Part shown: positions 839 through 21,151 of the stretch, piece after piece
How the letters are laid out: each line of letters starts with the position of its first letter
Position numbering within the stretch: position 1 is the stretch's first letter
Source: a virus
Length of the DNA stretch: 22,953 bases
Direction: 5' to 3' (one strand)
Virus record (IMG/VR): IMGVR_UViG_3300024252_000088
Location: 1-22,953 of that record
Translations under genes and position numbers: made by a program
The notes under the pieces: generated by a model
What the model was told of the DNA's origin: nothing
Databases searched by the model: none
The model's input: the letters and a program-made list of their open reading frames with translations, nothing else

Positions 839-1428
839 AAACCCAAACCCTTTAAAATATACCTTTCCGGTTAAGTGTTAAATCTTAAAAACTTAAAATT
901 ATTTCTTCATCTTCCTCTGCTTAATCAAATGCTCAGCTGCAAGCATGTTAAATTCATCCAACTTCTTCTGGTCGTCCTTAGTAAACGTATCTGGAAAGAA
1001 ACATTTCTTAGCATTTAAACCTTCCAGACTAACAACTTGGCAGACAGCCTTCAGACTCCCAACAAGGCGTTTATTCTCCTTAGCTCCAGTTCCATTTGCC
1101 CTTTCACCAACTAGCTTACCATCTACAAAATCTTGAAACTTTGCCTTTGCTAGCTTAGCTTTCTCCTCGGCAACTTTCACGCTGCTCCCACAGTCTGCCA
1201 ATTTTTGCTTAATTCCGTAAACTACCAGGAATTTTTGAACTTCGTTAAAATCTGGAAACATTGGATAAAGTTTTTCAATCTCAAATTTTTCCAATTCATC
1301 TGCTGGAGTATCTGAATCAATATACTTTCCCATTGCCAAAACACTTCCTACTAAAGTCCAATCAATAAGTCTTTTTGCCATAATTTACCTTCCTTTTTGG
1401 AAAGGCATATTTTAAAAAGTTTGGGTTT
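839..1428 (-). repeat. 30-bp inverted repeat enclosing the 160-aa gene
   Basis: Bases 839-868 and 1399-1428 are inverted copies matching at 27 of 30 positions. In the leftward RNA all three DNA mismatches become G-U pairs (848-850 region and 861 against 1417-1418 and 1406), so all 30 positions can pair. In the opposite-strand RNA they would be C-A clashes. The arms lie just before the ribosome site and just after the stop codon of the enclosed gene. Strand-specific wobble pairing points to function as leftward RNA. Confidence 0.75.
899..1381 (-). CDS. Hypothetical 160-aa protein
   Basis: Starts at the ATG at 1381 with a strong AAGGAAGG ribosome site eight bases upstream on the minus strand. 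The protein is lysine-rich and mostly helical, begins with a hydrophobic stretch too short to be a clear membrane segment, and ends in a highly basic tail. No catalytic motif or known domain is recognised. It is the largest gene of the leftward cluster. Its transcript is enclosed by a 30-bp inverted repeat whose 5' arm ends directly before the ribosome site, so its translation is likely under RNA-structure control (inference). Confidence 0.75.
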   Translation of the reverse strand: MAKRLIDWTLVGSVLAMGKYIDSDTPADELEKFEIEKLYPMFPDFNEVQKFLVVYGIKQKLADCGSSVKVAEEKAKLAKAKFQDFVDGKLVGERANGTGAKENKRLVGSLKAVCQVVSLEGLNAKKCFFPDTFTKDDQKKLDEFNMLAAEHLIKQRKMKK

Positions 1429-1429
1429 T

Positions 1430-1692
1430 GTTTAATTCCTGATTGCAGGTATCAAACCTGCGTTTTATTAATATTTATTTTTAAACCTTACTCTATAAAT
1501 TTCAGTCTCATTCCATACATTATTATAGTAAAAAATTCTTAATCTTTCAGAACAAAAGTATTTAATTACCATATGTGTGAAACAGTATTTTTCAGGTAAT
1601 TCAGTAAATCTTTCAAAAACCCACTGATATTTATTCATTTCAAACCTCCTGATTAAAAGTTAATATTCGATACCTCCAATCAGGAATTAAAC
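1430..1692 (-). repeat. 24-bp inverted repeat enclosing the 56-aa gene
   Basis: Bases 1430-1453 and 1669-1692 are inverted copies identical at 23 of 24 positions. The left arm lies one base from the arm of the neighbouring 30-bp repeat, so the two repeat-enclosed units are tiled side by side. The right arm forms the leader of the 56-aa gene and the left arm follows its stop codon. No target-site duplication is visible that would suggest a transposed element. Confidence 0.75.
1468..1638 (-). CDS. Small hypothetical protein, 56 aa, aromatic-rich
   Basis: A 56-codon reading frame starts at the ATG at 1638, seven bases after an AGGAGG ribosome site, the strongest in the cluster. The product is rich in tyrosine, phenylalanine, lysine and arginine (begins MNKYQWVFERF) and has two cysteines. 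It has no recognised domain. The leader resembles that of the 70-aa gene (a TTTAAT...GGAGGTTTGAA-type stretch before ATG), which supports both as real genes. A 24-bp inverted repeat encloses it. Confidence 0.65.
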   Translation of the reverse strand: MNKYQWVFERFTELPEKYCFTHMVIKYFCSERLRIFYYNNVWNETEIYRVRFKNKY

Positions 1693-1831: not shown

Positions 1832-1847
1832 TGCAAGCTCCGTGCCA
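1832..1847 (-). promoter_or_regulatory. Leftward sigma-54 promoter
   Basis: On the minus strand this reads TGGCACG-GAGC-TTGCA, an exact match to the sigma-54 consensus (TGGCACG, four bases, TTGCA/T). The -24 GG and -12 GC are separated by exactly ten bases. The start would fall near 1821, inside an alternating TA stretch, and would drive the leftward cluster. It needs host RpoN and an AAA+ activator, neither of which is encoded in the window. Confidence 0.7.
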
Positions 1848-1890
1848 CAACGGTAACATGCAGCTCTCCAACGATATGTTTATTTATCCC

Positions 1891-1924
1891 GGTTGGATTT
1901 GACCAAGGCTGGTTGGATTAAACC
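1891..1924. promoter_or_regulatory. Two GGTT-N6-AACC-type sites, 20 bp apart
   Basis: GGTTGGATTTGACC (1891-1904) and GGTTGGATTAAACC (1911-1924) share nine leading bases and each forms an imperfect (first) or perfect (second) inverted repeat. They lie between the divergent sigma-54 promoters, about 60-90 bases upstream of the expected first rightward start, where enhancer-binding activators usually sit. The binding role is inferred. Confidence 0.4.
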
Positions 1925-1955
1925 AGTTGTGATTAATTGTGGTTTGGTGTAAACA

Positions 1956-1973
1956 TTGGCATAGTTATTGCAA
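1956..1973 (+). promoter_or_regulatory. Rightward sigma-54 promoter 1
   Basis: TTGGCATAGTTATTGCAA has the -24 GG (1958-1959) and -12 GC (1970-1971) separated by exactly ten bases, with the flanking TTGGCA and TTGC parts of the consensus. The predicted start is near 1983. Confidence 0.65.
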
Positions 1974-2006
1974 GGCACAGATATAAAAATTCATTCAATT
2001 GCTTGG

Positions 2007-2024
2007 TTGGCATGGTACTTGCAA
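2007..2024 (+). promoter_or_regulatory. Rightward sigma-54 promoter 2
   Basis: TTGGCATGGTACTTGCAA repeats the same layout 51 bp downstream of promoter 1: GG at 2009-2010, ten bases, GC at 2021-2022. The start would lie near 2034, just before the 18-bp-phased array. The spacing and close sequence match to promoter 1 suggest a duplicated promoter. Confidence 0.7.
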
Positions 2025-2069
2025 GGGATTTAAATTCTGCAGATCCGGTATGGGGGTTGGTTCATTTAC

Positions 2070-2208
2070 TGAATCTCATTCAGTGTTTGAATTGGTTTAA
2101 CTTTCTGAATCTCATTCAGTGATTAATTCTGGATCAAAGTCTGAACCGGGTTCAAACAATGACTGACGTTCATCCACTGAACCAGCTTCAGAAAATGAAT
2201 CTCATTCA
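2070..2208. repeat. 18-bp-phased array of eight palindromic sites
   Basis: Thirteen-base units of the form TGAAYC-N-GRTTCA are centred at 2076, 2094, 2112, 2130, 2148, 2166, 2184 and 2202, an exact 18-bp pitch. Units at 2076, 2112 and 2202 are identical (TGAATCTCATTCA), 2148 is the perfect palindrome TGAACCGGGTTCA, 2166 and 2184 are near matches, and 2094 and 2130 are degenerate. Five-base spacers vary. The pitch and unit size resemble lambda-type origin iterons or a partition centromere; tandem operators are another option. Confidence 0.85.
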
Positions 2209-2304
2209 GCCGGGGGTACGAGGGCCATACTTCCTTTATTTTTGTATATTCAACCCCCAGATTCCCCATAAGGTAAATTTTGTAAAAGTAATCCCTTAAT
2301 GATA

Positions 2305-2353: not shown

Positions 2354-2382
2354 TTGACATCTAATCCAAAACATGATATGGT
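2354..2382 (+). promoter_or_regulatory. Rightward sigma-70 promoter
   Basis: A perfect -35 box TTGACA (2354-2359) is followed after 17 bases by TATGGT (2377-2382) as the -10 box. The expected start is at 2388-2390, which coincides with the ATG of the first rightward gene. It probably drives at least the small genes and terminase region. Confidence 0.75.
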
Positions 2383-2387
2383 TTAAT

Positions 2388-2612
2388 ATGGATATAACTA
2401 CAATAGAAAAATCGCTTTCCACCTCACTAAGCACCACAAAGAAAGACAGAAAGCCTTGTAACCCGCTGGTTGATCATAGGCAACTTTCGGTGATTTATTA
2501 CTGTATGGCGGATAGCCAAGAAGAAACTTGTTTAAGATACTCCCCGGGACCTAATGGGGATTGTACGCATCAGGATATTTTAAACCAGCCTTTTATTTGT
2601 CGGAGCATCTAA
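2388..2612 (+). CDS. Small cysteine-containing protein, possibly leaderless
   Basis: The frame runs to a TAA at 2610-2612. An ATG at 2373 lies inside the promoter spacer, so the ATG at 2388 (74 aa), which coincides with the predicted transcription start, is preferred. The message would then be leaderless, as for lambda cI from PRM. An internal ATG at 2505 (35 aa) is the alternative. The product has five cysteines, four of them in the last third together with a CTHQD segment, so metal binding is possible. No family is recognised. Confidence 0.5.
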   Translation: MDITTIEKSLSTSLSTTKKDRKPCNPLVDHRQLSVIYYCMADSQEETCLRYSPGPNGDCTHQDILNQPFICRSI

Positions 2613-2990: not shown

Positions 2991-3479
2991 GTGGGCGGAC
3001 AGAACTCTGGAAGAGGCAAAAAAGAAGTGGATATGGAAGCGGCTCTTGATCTGCTAATGCGGGGAGAGAAAGTACCGGCCATTGCCACTGAGCTTGGTGT
3101 ATCCGCCCCGACGCTCCGTAGTCGCATAGCCGAAATACAAAAGAAACAGGGTCTTTTACTCCAGTATCGCTCGATACAATCCCTCCAACTTACCGAACTT
3201 CAAGCTAGGGTTCTCGAAGCAATTACCCCGGAAAAGATAGAAGAAGCGAACCTCCGGGATCTGGTTATGTCTTACAAGATCCTGAAAGACAAAGAACAGG
3301 TTATGGAAGGTAAACCTAATGAGATAAAGGGGCTTGTTGCTCATCTTGTGTATTTGGAAAAGCAGGAGAATGCCCTGGAAGCAGACTCAATAGACGTTAC
3401 CCCGGAACCTGGTACCGAAATACCTAAAGAGAAAACCCTTGCAGAGGAGCTAGCGATCTTAGATGACGGTAATTTCTAA
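2991..3479 (+). CDS. Probable terminase small subunit (HTH protein)
   Basis: 162 residues from a GTG at 2991, right after the previous stop. Residues about 15-50 hold a helix-turn-helix (AIATELGVSAPTLRSRI). The middle region has the helical 'TPEKIEEANLRDL...YKILKDKEQVMEG' pattern seen in many phage small terminases and related DNA-binding proteins. The acidic C-terminus could contact a partner. Small terminases recognise the packaging site and recruit the large subunit. The adjoining HNH gene supports a packaging role, but the large terminase is about 10 kb away. An HTH regulator is the alternative. Confidence 0.5.
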   Translation: MGGQNSGRGKKEVDMEAALDLLMRGEKVPAIATELGVSAPTLRSRIAEIQKKQGLLLQYRSIQSLQLTELQARVLEAITPEKIEEANLRDLVMSYKILKDKEQVMEGKPNEIKGLVAHLVYLEKQENALEADSIDVTPEPGTEIPKEKTLAEELAILDDGNF

Positions 3480-13864: not shown

Positions 13865-15340
13865 ATGGAATTGAATACTGAAATAAATAAAGGGGTTTTA
13901 GCGAAGCTTACTGAGTGGAAGAAAAGTGCTCTTACATTTGCAGTTGAGTGTATTAAAGTTACCCCTTCGACTCAGCAAATTGAACTTCTTCAAGCTATTT
14001 CAAACGAGAAAAGAGTTTCTGTACGAAGTGGTCATGGAGTTGGTAAAGATGCAAGTGCTTCATGGATTGTGCTGTGGTTTCTGGTTACCAGGCCTTATGC
14101 GAAAGTGGTTGTAACTGCACCGACTAACCGTCAGCTTAGAGATATATTTCTTTCTGAGATTTCTAAATGGCTTAGGCAATCGATAGTAGCTGATGAGTTT
14201 ATAGTTAGAAAAGATTCTATTCAGCATAAAGAGGCTCCAAAAGAGTGGTGGATGCGGCTGATTTCTCCTTCTATTCGAGCTACAAAAGAAGAGCAGGGTG
14301 AAACTTTAGCTGGTTTACATGGCGATCACTTATTGATAGTTTGTGATGAAGCGAGTGGTATTCCTGATCCAACTTACATACCGTTAGAGGGTGCGATTAC
14401 TCAGCCTGATAATAAAGTACTTTTAATTGGTAATATGACTAAGAACTTTGGTTACTTTTACGATACACATTTTCATGCTGAAATAAAAAAGCAGTGGAGA
14501 AAGTTTCATTGGGATTCAAGAAATTCCACAAACGTTGATCCAAGTATGCCTGAATACTTTGCTATGAAATATGGTCTTGATTCGAATGTGTTTAGGATTA
14601 GGGTTGAGGGAAATCCCCCGCTTCAGGATGAAAACACGCTTATACCACTTTGGTCTGCACAGCAGTGTATTGGGCAACAGTTTGAAGTTGCTGAAGATGA
14701 GCCCCTTTACCTTGGTGTGGATGTAGCTAGATACGGCGATGATTGTTCTATTATTTTACCGAGAAAAGGCTTACGAATTGATCCTTGGGAGACGTTTAGA
14801 AAGTTAAACACAATAGATCTTGGTGGGTTTATTAACCAGACTTATCAAGAGTTGAAAGCTGACGGGATTGGGATTGATTCTATTGGTGTTGGAGCCGGGG
14901 TTGCTGATTGGCTTGAAAAACGTAAGTTGAAGAATCTTTATCAAGTAAATGTAACTATGGCTTCAAGTAATATTGCAAAGTTTCATAAACTCCGGGATGA
15001 GCTTTGGTGTAGAGTTAGAGATAATTGTTTACTTGGGAAATACTCGTTTCCTGATGTTAAGGTTAGTGGGGAGCCGGAGAGTCTTGGACAACAGCTTGCA
15101 AGTGAACTTGCTACAGTTAGATATAGTTTTAATGCTCATGGTGGGTATGTTATAGAATCTAAAAAAGATTTAAAGACTAGGGGAATTGATAGTCCGAATA
15201 TTGCTGATGCACTTTGTATTACGGAGTATTTTTCTAATGACAGTACAAGAGTATTTGCTAAGGATAAAGAAAATTATTACTCGGAGTTTGGAAAGTATAG
15301 AGATTATCATAGTAGTGAATCTGCTTGGATGGGGAGTTAA
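13865..15340 (+). CDS. Terminase large subunit
   Basis: 491 residues, the usual length. The ATPase half has Walker A SGHGVGK (55-61), the TAPT motif at 84-87 and Walker B LLIVCDEA (156-163). The nuclease half has an RNase H-like fold with acidic residues in GVDVARYGDD (D286), GIGIDSIGVG (D338) and the C-terminal DSPNIADAL (D447). It is the motor and headful or cos nuclease for DNA packaging, docking on the portal encoded two genes later. Its small-subunit candidate lies at 2991, unusually far upstream. Confidence 0.92.
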   Translation: MELNTEINKGVLAKLTEWKKSALTFAVECIKVTPSTQQIELLQAISNEKRVSVRSGHGVGKDASASWIVLWFLVTRPYAKVVVTAPTNRQLRDIFLSEISKWLRQSIVADEFIVRKDSIQHKEAPKEWWMRLISPSIRATKEEQGETLAGLHGDHLLIVCDEASGIPDPTYIPLEGAITQPDNKVLLIGNMTKNFGYFYDTHFHAEIKKQWRKFHWDSRNSTNVDPSMPEYFAMKYGLDSNVFRIRVEGNPPLQDENTLIPLWSAQQCIGQQFEVAEDEPLYLGVDVARYGDDCSIILPRKGLRIDPWETFRKLNTIDLGGFINQTYQELKADGIGIDSIGVGAGVADWLEKRKLKNLYQVNVTMASSNIAKFHKLRDELWCRVRDNCLLGKYSFPDVKVSGEPESLGQQLASELATVRYSFNAHGGYVIESKKDLKTRGIDSPNIADALCITEYFSNDSTRVFAKDKENYYSEFGKYRDYHSSESAWMGS

Positions 15341-15346
15341 GGGAAA

Positions 15347-15538
15347 ATGGAAATAGTTAAGTATAATGAAAAGAAAAAAGTTTTATCTATGAAATTTAAC
15401 ACTGACGCTATATGGAAGTACAATGGTGTAGATAAAAAAGCGTATGATAAGCTTACATCTGCGAAGTCATTAGAAAAAGCTGTTAAAGATTTACTACATA
15501 AACCACTTATAGTTGGTACACATAAAGAGGTAAAATGA
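15347..15538 (+). CDS. KTSC-domain small protein
   Basis: 63 residues matching the KTSC pattern: VKYNEKKKVLSMKF, a Y-x-Y-like WKYNGV, then AYDKLTSAKSLEKAV. KTSC domains occur alone in phages and also at the ends of lysyl-tRNA synthetases and other proteins; their role is not settled. The stop overlaps the start of the portal gene (ATGATG), so translation is coupled and the dose is tied to portal. Confidence 0.7.
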   Translation: MEIVKYNEKKKVLSMKFNTDAIWKYNGVDKKAYDKLTSAKSLEKAVKDLLHKPLIVGTHKEVK

Positions 15539-17559
15539 TGAGCTCACAAGCAGATAAAAAAATTCTTAAAGAGGTCCAAGATAGGTTTACAAAAGCTGTT
15601 GATGAAGATGAAGAGAATAATCGACTTGCTCTTGATGACCTTAATTTTGTTGGTGTAGATGGAGCTCAATGGCCTGAAGAAGTAAAAGCTATGCGTACAG
15701 CTGATGGAAGACCTTGTTTAACTATTGATAAAATGTCTGCGTTTATTGATCAGGTTGTTGGTGATCAGCGAATGAATAGGCCGTCTATTAAGGTTATTCC
15801 AGTAGATTCTAAAGGTGACCCCGAAGTTGCTAGGATTCTTGGTGGCTGGATTAAACATGTGCAGCATGTTTCGAAAGCGGATATAGCAATAGATCATGGC
15901 TTTGAACACGCAGTTACTTGTGGTGTCGGGGCTATGCGGGTTGTGACTAAATATATAAATGATACTTCTTTTGACCAAGATGCTTATATTGAAAAGGTGG
16001 ATAATGCGTTAGCTATTTATTGGGGTAAACACCTTGAGTATGATTGTTCAGACGCTAAATATTGTATTATTGTTTCTGATATGGATAGAGACGAGTATAA
16101 AGAAAAATATAATAAAGAACCAATGGAGTTTAATACAGTTAGTAACGAGTATGTTGCTGGTTGGTGTACAAAAGATACTGTTAGACTGGTAGAGTACTTT
16201 GTAAAAGAACCCCGGAAACAGGTTATTTATTTGCTTGATGATGATAGGGTTGTGAGTAAGCTGGAAGAGGGTGATGTGGTAAGTCAGAAAAGACGTATAG
16301 AATCTTATGATATTATGTGGTATCTTGTTTCAGGTAGTGAGGTGCTTGAGAAGAAAAAATGGGTAGGAAAGAAGTATATTCCTATTATTCCTATTTGGGG
16401 TAAAGAGTTAAACGTAGGTGGAAAGGTTAAAAGACGGGGTTTGATTAGAAAAGCTAAAGATGCTCAGCGTATGTATAATTATTGGAGCTCTACAGACACT
16501 GAAATAGCTACATTGCAACCAAAAGTTCCTTATCTTGTTACTCCGAAACAGATATCTGGACACGAGTCACAGTGGAACGAAGCACAGAGAAAGAATTATC
16601 CTTATCTGCTGGTTAACTTTGATGAGAAAGCACCGGGGTGGCCTAAGAGAGAAGTACCTCCGCAGGCTTCTAGTGCAATGATTGAGAGGATTCAGACCAC
16701 TGACCAGGAAATGCGTGATACAGTTGGGTTGCAGAAAGCAAGCCTTGGTATGCAAAGTAATGAAAGATCTGGAAAGGCTATTATAGAAAGGAAAAAAGAG
16801 GGTGATGTTGGTACTTTTTCTTTTGTGGATAATTTAGCCCGGTCTATTCAACAACTTGGTAGAGTACTTGTGGATATGGCTCCGGGGTTACTTGATACAG
16901 AAAGAGTCATACGACTTGGTCTGGATAATGGGGAGCAAGAGTTTGTTGGTGTAAATCAAGAAGTAGAAGAGTCTGGAATTAAGCAAATTTTAAATGACAC
17001 ATCTGTAGGTACATATGATGTAGTAGTTACTGTTGGCCCAAGTTTTACTACACAAAGAACAGAAGCCCGGCAGTCTATGTCAGAGTTCATTCAGTACTAC
17101 CCACAAGCTGCTCCAATTATTGGTGATTTGTTTGCGAAAGCTATGGACTGGCCTGGAGCGGAGGAAGTTTCAGAGCGGCTTGAGTTTCTACTTCCACCCG
17201 AGGTTAAAGAAGCTAAAGCAGCTAAAGATGCTAAACAAAGTGGTGAGGCGCCTCCTCCACCTACACCACCTCCTCCGCTCTCACCTGAAGATCAGCTTGC
17301 TATAGAAAATGGGAAGATTAAGCTCCAAGAAGGTCAGTTGAAATTACAGGCTGGGCAGGTTAAACTTCAAGAGGGAAATTTAGCACTTGAAGAACAAAAA
17401 GTTGCACTTGAAGAAGAAAAGGTTAAACTTGCTCAAGCGGAAGTAAAACTTATACAGATACGACAAGAGACGAAAATGAAAGCTGTTGATTTTATTGAAG
17501 GGAGGAAAGAGAAAAAAGAAGAAACAGCTAAGATTGAAAAGACTAAGATTGAAAAGTGA
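15535..17559 (+). CDS. Portal protein, P22 type
   Basis: 674 residues, close to the 725 of P22 gp1. The N-terminal EENNRLALDDLNFVGVDGAQ followed by WP, and LTIDKMSAFIDQVVGDQRMN at about 63-82, are hallmarks of the P22-like portal family. About residue 572 there is a proline-rich hinge (PPPPTPPPP), followed by a long charged helix with a repeating LQEGQLKLQ / LEEQKVALEE pattern up to the lysine-rich end. P22 portal has a comparable C-terminal helical barrel. The dodecameric ring is the DNA gate at the head vertex and docks terminase. Confidence 0.9.
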   Translation: MMSSQADKKILKEVQDRFTKAVDEDEENNRLALDDLNFVGVDGAQWPEEVKAMRTADGRPCLTIDKMSAFIDQVVGDQRMNRPSIKVIPVDSKGDPEVARILGGWIKHVQHVSKADIAIDHGFEHAVTCGVGAMRVVTKYINDTSFDQDAYIEKVDNALAIYWGKHLEYDCSDAKYCIIVSDMDRDEYKEKYNKEPMEFNTVSNEYVAGWCTKDTVRLVEYFVKEPRKQVIYLLDDDRVVSKLEEGDVVSQKRRIESYDIMWYLVSGSEVLEKKKWVGKKYIPIIPIWGKELNVGGKVKRRGLIRKAKDAQRMYNYWSSTDTEIATLQPKVPYLVTPKQISGHESQWNEAQRKNYPYLLVNFDEKAPGWPKREVPPQASSAMIERIQTTDQEMRDTVGLQKASLGMQSNERSGKAIIERKKEGDVGTFSFVDNLARSIQQLGRVLVDMAPGLLDTERVIRLGLDNGEQEFVGVNQEVEESGIKQILNDTSVGTYDVVVTVGPSFTTQRTEARQSMSEFIQYYPQAAPIIGDLFAKAMDWPGAEEVSERLEFLLPPEVKEAKAAKDAKQSGEAPPPPTPPPPLSPEDQLAIENGKIKLQEGQLKLQAGQVKLQEGNLALEEQKVALEEEKVKLAQAEVKLIQIRQETKMKAVDFIEGRKEKKEETAKIEKTKIEK

Positions 17560-19915: not shown

Positions 19916-21151
19916 ATGGGTTTAAATTTAAGGTATAGTCCACTTGAGTGGGATGAAGCAACTAAAACATTGGAAATGGGAGCTGCTACTACGGGACTTT
20001 CATTAACTGGAGCTATTACTACACCGGTTTCAATAACTGGTGCTTTTACAACAGGTATTAATATAGCGGCTGATGGTACTACTGCTATAGCGGTTACCAG
20101 TGCGTTTACTGGTACAACTATGCTGTCGTTAGCCGGTACAGCAACAGATGGTATTAAAATTAGTGGTATTTGTGCAGATGGTATTGAAATTTCTGCAGCT
20201 GCAACTACAACTGGTCTTAATGTTTCTGCAGATTGTGTGACGGGTATTACAATAGGCGCTCAAACCACGGCTGGAATTTCTATAGGAGCAACCGGAACCG
20301 GGCTTGCCATAACTGGCGCTACCTCAGTTGCTGCTCTTCATATTTCTGGAGTCTGGGGCGAGAGTGCTAATTTGGGCGGTATTTTAATCGCTGGAGATGC
20401 CTCTGGCACAGCGCTTGCTCTTGGGGCGCACACAACGGAAATGATAGTGACCAGGGTAAATGTTACAGCCGCTGTTACAAATAGCAGTAACTTCATGGCA
20501 AATTATACCACGATGGCAACATCTGCGGCAATGGCGGATGGTTTTATAATGGGTCATTATATAAGATGCAATATAAACCATCTTGCATATGAGAATTATG
20601 CTATGTATGGCAGGATGAATGTTACCGTAGCACAGACGGGCGATTCTGCAAATCAGTTCATCGGTGTATTTGGTAACTGTACTATGAGTGGTCATGCCCA
20701 TGCTCTTCTTGATACTGGTGGTTGTTATGGTGTTCTTGGTACAGCTTCAATTGCAACAGGCGGAACGCTTGACCAGCCATTGATTGCAGGTTATTTTGAT
20801 TGTAATGCAGTTGATAATATTGCGGGTGTAACATTAGCAGTAAAAGCAAGAATGCAGGGATACACCGATTTTGGTGTTGAGGCGTTCTGCCAAACAAATA
20901 ACGCTACAGCAGGCTTTCATATCAGAGCTACTGCGGCGGCTGTCCTACCTGTTGGTATTTTATTCACTGGCGAGAATGTTGGTGGGCAGGGGAGTATTAC
21001 AAAAGCGTTTAAGTTTGCAGCGGCTACTAATTGTGGGATTGCAGCGAATACAAACGCGTTAACCCTTACTGAAACATCGCACCATATTGTTGTTGATATT
21101 GCAGGGACAAATTATTATGTTCCTATATTTGACAAGAGTACATGGAATTAA
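19916..21151 (+). CDS. Beta-repeat protein, possible head fibre or decoration
   Basis: 411 residues. Residues about 24-145 are a run of ten- to twelve-residue repeats of the form TGIxIxGAxT, as expected of a beta-roll, beta-helix or triple beta-spiral shaft. The rest is a Gly/Ala/Thr-rich globular part with several cysteines and histidines. It has a good AGGAG site and sits directly after coat, where P22-like phages may carry decoration or head-fibre genes. It is enclosed by two structured intergenic elements, so it may be an inserted module. No named family is recognised. Confidence 0.6.
   Translation: MGLNLRYSPLEWDEATKTLEMGAATTGLSLTGAITTPVSITGAFTTGINIAADGTTAIAVTSAFTGTTMLSLAGTATDGIKISGICADGIEISAAATTTGLNVSADCVTGITIGAQTTAGISIGATGTGLAITGATSVAALHISGVWGESANLGGILIAGDASGTALALGAHTTEMIVTRVNVTAAVTNSSNFMANYTTMATSAAMADGFIMGHYIRCNINHLAYENYAMYGRMNVTVAQTGDSANQFIGVFGNCTMSGHAHALLDTGGCYGVLGTASIATGGTLDQPLIAGYFDCNAVDNIAGVTLAVKARMQGYTDFGVEAFCQTNNATAGFHIRATAAAVLPVGILFTGENVGGQGSITKAFKFAAATNCGIAANTNALTLTETSHHIVVDIAGTNYYVPIFDKSTWN

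Follow-up and report, generated by a model that had tools for sequence, protein, structure and literature searches.

An intergenic region of a tailed-phage genome fragment probably acts as a divergent early/late switch with working promoters for the host sigma factor sigma-54 (RpoN), judging from its sequence. The analyzed DNA (hereafter, the window) is an entire IMG/VR record, a linear fragment of 22,953 bases. Its control region (1382-2390) lies between a leftward block (899-1381), which runs past the contig edge, and a rightward block carrying the HTH, terminase, and portal genes (Table 1). One predicted sigma-54 promoter would fire leftward into a replication operon, and two would fire toward the late side, which has its own predicted sigma-70 promoter at 2354. 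Alone among bacterial sigma factors, sigma-54 is unable to open DNA without an ATP-driven activator, and phage replication placed under its control would, therefore, be tied directly to a signal of the host. The arrangement suggests that some phages may run their main switch via the host's tightly gated sigma-54 system.

Table 1. Features of the control region and of its flanking genes (coordinates refer to the window).
Feature	Position	Strand	Details
First conserved leftward gene, 160 aa	899-1381	-	First in the putative sigma-54 operon; homologues (24-54% identity) in 7 relatives
Leader hairpin, pairing with the Shine-Dalgarno region	1379-1410	-	Leftward transcript; CCUUUCC/GGAAGG
Leftward sigma-54 promoter (predicted), TGGCACGGAGCTTGCA	1832-1847	-	-26 to -11; predicted start ~1821; 19.7 of 20.3 bits
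Two copies of GGTTGGATTNNACCA, 20 bp apart	1891-1926		Direct repeat between the divergent promoters; TGGTT-N6-AACCA type
Palindrome CTGGTTGGATTAAACCAG, the second GGTTGGATTNNACCA copy	1909-1926		62 bp upstream of the leftward site
Rightward sigma-54 promoter 1 (predicted), TGGCATAGTTATTGCA	1957-1972	+	Predicted start ~1983; 17.1 of 20.3 bits
Rightward sigma-54 promoter 2 (predicted), TGGCATGGTACTTGCA	2008-2023	+	Predicted start ~2034; 18.7 of 20.3 bits
Array of 15-bp palindromes, CTGAA-N5-TTCAG	2068-2210		2068-2084, 2105-2119, 2178-2192, and imperfect copies
Sigma-70 promoter (predicted), TTGACA-N17-TATGGT	2354-2382	+	Rightward (late) side
Small Cys-rich ORF, first on the right	2388-2612	+	ORF 2373-2612, start codon uncertain; relatives have a homologous small ORF
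HTH protein, small-terminase-like by position	2991-3479	+	Weak HTH matches; 31 related loci
Terminase large subunit	13865-15340	+	phrog_2, E=1.3e-38
P22-like portal protein	15535-17559	+	PF16510, E=4.8e-176

A preliminary description of this DNA had reported three 16-mers with GG-N10-GC spacing, one leftward and two rightward, and all their positions were confirmed. The sequence check found GG at -25/-24 and GC at -13/-12 in 3/3 sites, and the two rightward promoters, whose starts are 51 bp apart, are 85% identical as 20-mers. For comparison, the published sigma-54 promoter consensus is TGGCAC-N5-7-TTGCT (PMC12316311). The three sites also agree well with the fuller form TGGCAC(G/A)-N4-TTGC(A/T). 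The pattern TGGCAYRNNNNTTGCW has four exact matches in the record and its reversed form has none. The sites were scored using a weight matrix with values hand-set from the known consensus, strong sites being those of at least 16 bits. Four strong sites occur in the window, versus 0.083 expected in second-order Markov sequences, and the objection that similar sites might be found at chance density throughout the genome, thus, fails. Three of them fall within a single 192-bp intergenic stretch. A looser consensus search, allowing three mismatches, stayed at chance level in the window (98 matches found versus 91 expected), so the signal is carried only by high-scoring, near-perfect sites. The fourth strong site (20404-20419, + strand) is located inside a structural ORF (19916-21151), and is probably a chance match.

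Conservation was assessed in two sets of relatives. The first was found via the HTH protein, the promoter not being used in the search. The leftward site is present in 9/9 homologous control regions, a count which takes in the window and all eight HTH-protein relatives with a matching layout (L001, L003, L004, L005, L007, L008, L020, and L032). These nine regions contain 14 sites of at least 14.5 bits, versus 0.12 expected. When their nine 61-nt promoter segments were aligned, the only invariant columns were TGGCA and TGCA, in an alignment that is anchored at the site because the segments were cut around it. The second set was found independently, via the first leftward gene, and each of the new relatives L219, L220, L221, L223, L224, and L228 has a site 129-419 nt upstream, aimed at this gene. 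The distant L231/L232 and L234, found via the same gene, have no such site upstream. Two relatives, of 47,967 and 34,331 bases, have one exact perfect-consensus site each, at the same control region. Clustering of the hits at this region is, thus, seen both in the window and in these 48- and 34-kb relatives. The sigma-54 reading put forward in the preliminary description is well supported: homologous control regions conserve the leftward site, which is also the sole strong hit in near-complete relatives.

The exact site is absent from more distant HTH-protein relatives (L012, L014, L015, L018, L023, L026, L027, and L029), which indicates that the trait belongs to a subgroup of the family. It is also absent from the terminase-related isolates among Zobellviridae (ICP2, P12053L, MEP401, and SIO1) and from phiM5. 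The rightward site is found in L007, L008, and L221, and in a weaker form in L219, and is absent from most relatives. This poor conservation, together with the sigma-70 promoter that the rightward genes already possess, speaks against the sigma-54 reading. Phages of the INPHARED collection contain no homologue of the HTH protein, nor of the small protein found beside the arrays described below.

The gene content on the two sides bears out the view that this is the main divergent region of the phage, as the leftward site faces the replication operon, with the packaging and structural genes lying opposite. In the 48-kb relative L032, the leftward-side genes encode a DNA-ligase OB domain, a PDDEXK nuclease, AAA_24, a ParB-methylase, a uracil-DNA-glycosylase (UDG)-DNA polymerase A fusion, and DUF3987. 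This polymerase, ligase, nuclease, and methylase content identifies the leftward operon as a replication module. The rightward operon is devoted to packaging and structure. The 160-aa protein heading the leftward side has no Pfam match, and its predicted fold (pTM 0.49) has no PDB match below E=0.7. Domain fusions occur in L215 (465-2870; 48-kb relative), where a uracil-DNA-glycosylase-like domain is joined to a family A DNA polymerase, and in L214 (17104-18435), where an N6/N4 DNA methylase carries a ParB N-terminal domain.

Several other elements of the control region could take part in regulation. The 1891-1926 repeats are a candidate enhancer (UAS) for an activator, while the CTGAA-N5-TTCAG array is a candidate operator or enhancer array. 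The same palindrome type occurs in L032 (3586-3602, corresponding to L218 3164), and related CTGAA-N4-6-TTCAG palindromes occur in L219 (3256) and in L001 (1863)/L233. Another palindrome, TCGACA-N4-TGTCGA, from which that of the window (CTGGTTGGATTAAACCAG) differs, precedes the leftward -24 box by 55-117 bp in L001, L003, L004, L005, L007, L008, L223, and L224. Enhancer-binding proteins usually sit at about such distances upstream of their promoters, typically ~80-150 bp. The CTGAA-N4-6-TTCAG and TCGACA-N4-TGTCGA palindromes are probably operators of two different regulators, and TCGACA-N4-TGTCGA and CTGAATCTCATTCAG are candidate targets of an activator or a repressor. On the rightward side, a TTGAC-N-TATGGT sequence similar to the predicted sigma-70 promoter precedes the homologous small ORF in L001, L003, L004, and L005.

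On the leftward side, the leader motif TTCATGCCTTCCAT precedes the first gene in the window (1379-1434, - strand), as well as in L001, L003, L008, L220, L221, L223, L224, and L226. It is followed by a hairpin in most relatives, which in some of them also pairs with the start codon, and equivalent hairpins made of different base pairs are found in L003, L001, L008, and L223. The motif and its hairpin look like a translational switch, and an Rfam search of the window returned no match.

According to the preferred explanation, host RpoN-RNA polymerase would wait at the sites as a closed complex. The replication operon would be started once a host AAA+ enhancer-binding protein on the palindromes ~55-120 bp upstream became active. 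The phage would thereby read the host state, or exploit stress triggered by the infection itself. The leftward transcript would begin with a 129-430 nt leader, whose hairpin, by masking the ribosome-binding site, would constitute a second control step. A domain search found no Sigma54_activat domain in the window and 49 related or array-bearing records, many of which are fragments, and sigma-54 itself is not encoded in any of the 34 records tested (many of them fragments); both domain searches gave matches in control genomes. As no sigma-54 or AAA+ activator gene was found in these phage records, both would come from the host. Of the links drawn in the preliminary description, that to a host AAA+ activator is putative, and that to nutrient or stress state is hypothetical.

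If this explanation is correct, such promoters would offer a direct genetic handle on host-state sensing by environmental phages, and rpoN and its activators would be phage-susceptibility genes for a non-metabolic reason. They would also add an extra layer to phage promoter annotation, which mostly seeks sigma-70-type boxes. The motif is strict enough for computer screening of virome data.

Similar sites are found as arrays in other viral contigs. Two tandem TTGGCAY-N5-TTGCA units occur in at least 120 viral stretches, compared with 2 when the internal spacing of each unit is N6. Three tandem units occur in 83 stretches from 2.9 million viral contigs, versus 2 from 11.3 million cellular contigs (257 Gb); one of these two lies at a contig end adjoining a nuo operon, and the other among small ORFs. 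The 165 array loci, of which 85 are non-redundant, constitute 33 components without common neighbor genes (87 loci in one of them), and the trait has, therefore, probably arisen or spread many times. In the non-redundant arrays, 373 exact sites have the correct spacing and 0 have a spacing one base shorter or longer, and the reversed pattern was found 0 times in 43 whole records. Variation among single-mismatch array sites mostly affects -15 (26/62), followed by -11 and -20, and hardly GG or GC. Positions left free by the search pattern have sigma-54-like preferences as well (R at -20, A/G at -19, T at -18/-17, and G/A at -28). The arrays are placed at 37 divergent versus 7 convergent gene junctions, and in the largest group, a small protein, an endolysin, and a terminase are encoded on one side, and small early-type genes on the other. 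The family of the window shows this placement too, as a separate case with fewer sites.

The arrays carry 3-14 sites, on both strands. Sites on the same strand (L033-L209) are often spaced by 25-29 bp, with peaks near 26, 38, 47, and 56 bp that are separated by roughly one turn of the helix, and 19 of the 85 arrays contain face-to-face pairs 1-12 bp apart. With such spacing and facing pairs, the sites of an array could not all fire together, and a dense array might be a poised store, a mutually exclusive switch, or a decoy. The facing pairs were also considered as hairpins or palindromic operators, and rejected as such, since their spacer likeness is 0.26, versus 0.53 for other pairs in the same arrays. 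A more speculative proposal, less likely than not, is that a large and diverse set of environmental phages uses clustered sigma-54 boxes at early/late junctions as a viral device, acting either through many poised RpoN-polymerase complexes that fire jointly once a host stress activator is triggered by infection, or as an RpoN sponge, and, thus, constituting a general control point not previously recognized. A Chitinophagales MAG contig (L156, 766-5356) contains 12 sigma-54-like sites in less than 5 kb among small ORFs, and this stretch is perhaps a mobile island.

Other explanations of the sites have to be weighed against working sigma-54 promoters. They might mainly titrate host RpoN holoenzyme as the phage genome multiplies, promoter activity being secondary. 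The high number of sites in some arrays (up to ~14 per locus), their dense and helically phased spacing, the facing pairs, which should block each other as promoters, and the lack of an activator gene in the phage records all fit with such a decoy. Nevertheless, there are just 1-3 sites in the window and in its relatives, the conserved one lies at a sensible distance from the gene at which it is aimed, palindromes are present at enhancer distance, and even the arrays favor divergent junctions, like promoters. A decoy is, thus, unlikely here, and more suited to phages with dense arrays than to the window. It is quite unlikely, too, that a DNA-binding protein encoded by the phage uses the motif as its operator, the resemblance of the motif to the sigma-54 consensus being a coincidence. 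Tandem and alternating arrays do resemble operator arrays, and TGGCA and the similar TTGCA, 11 bp away, could be half-sites. However, variation obeys the sigma-54 rules (nearly fixed GG and GC, variable T at -15, R at -20, and strict spacing), 33 components with unrelated neighbor genes would require many convergent operators, and the mismatched spacers of the facing pairs are not those of palindromic operators.

A reading of the sites as sigma-70 promoters, in which TTGGCA would serve as a weak -35 box, is very improbable. In a test for TTGACA/TATAAT with 16-18 bp spacing, neither the leftward site nor rightward site 1 had a match of at least 9/12. Rightward site 2 can be read as TTGGCA-N18-TAAATT (9/12), and may have a minor sigma-70 role. 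In several relatives, AT-rich, TATAAT-like stretches just downstream of the leftward site (14-16 bp from its box) make dual sigma-70 use possible. This reading, nevertheless, leaves the invariant TGCA at -12 and the strict 16-mer geometry unexplained, no -10 hexamer is found downstream of the array sites, and the spacing is too short in several members. As for chance matches to a short consensus, which probably account for the one strong site of the four that lies inside a structural ORF, their probability as a general explanation is negligible: they are ruled out by the excess of strong sites over expectation and by conservation in all nine homologous regions.

The predicted sigma-54 promoters share with bacterial RpoN promoters, such as glnAp2 and pspA, the letters and spacing of the -24/-12 boxes, the divergent or tandem layouts, and the upstream palindromes, which would be at enhancer distance. 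They differ by their location in a phage early/late control region, and the multi-site, two-stranded arrays of other phages are almost absent from cellular genomes. As in lambda- and T7-type control, a compact divergent intergenic region parts the replication and structural transcription units. Nevertheless, lambda and T7 types combine host sigma-70 with repressors, antiterminators, or an RNA polymerase of the phage, whereas host sigma-54, which needs an ATP-driven activator to start, is predicted here.

A connection between phage and host sigma-54 systems also exists in Salmonella, where Gifsy-1 prophage genes are linked to the RtcR/sigma-54 RNA-repair operon; the sigma-54 promoter is that of the host operon (PMC9879122), while in the present case, it is the phage genome that carries the sites, which are aimed at phage replication genes. 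Loss of rpoN lowers infection by Salmonella phages Aji_GE and FelixO1, an effect that was ascribed to glutamine shortage and RpoS activity (PMC8744999) and, unlike here, was not assigned to phage promoters. Searches of the open-licence literature gave no account of phage control regions that use sigma-54, and the novelty of such regions is, thus, provisional. The preliminary description had called such control unusual, a term to be tempered, since clusters of such sites are widespread in environmental phage contigs, although no paper describing them was found.

In L001, the Cys-rich ORF is separated from the HTH gene by an extra gene (2223-2960) and another ORF. The product of the extra gene (245 aa) contains the motif SGGLDSSLL, suggestive of an ATP-pyrophosphatase-type enzyme.

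Candidate sites are also present in named isolates, which opens the way to laboratory tests. Pseudomonas aeruginosa phage CHA_P1 (88 kb) has two exact sites, at 50800 and 50949, 149 bp apart in a gene-free stretch; like CHA_P1, phage PAK_P3 is a Nankokuvirus, and its transcriptome paper does not mention RpoN (PMC4933390). Vibrio phage pVp-1 has three exact sites in gene-free stretches. Vibrio phage Thalassa (NC_042095) has two, also gene-free and repeated at both genome ends (501, 3562, 121708, and 124769). The Thalassa sites are probably inside a terminal repeat, which, by analogy with T5, would carry early genes.
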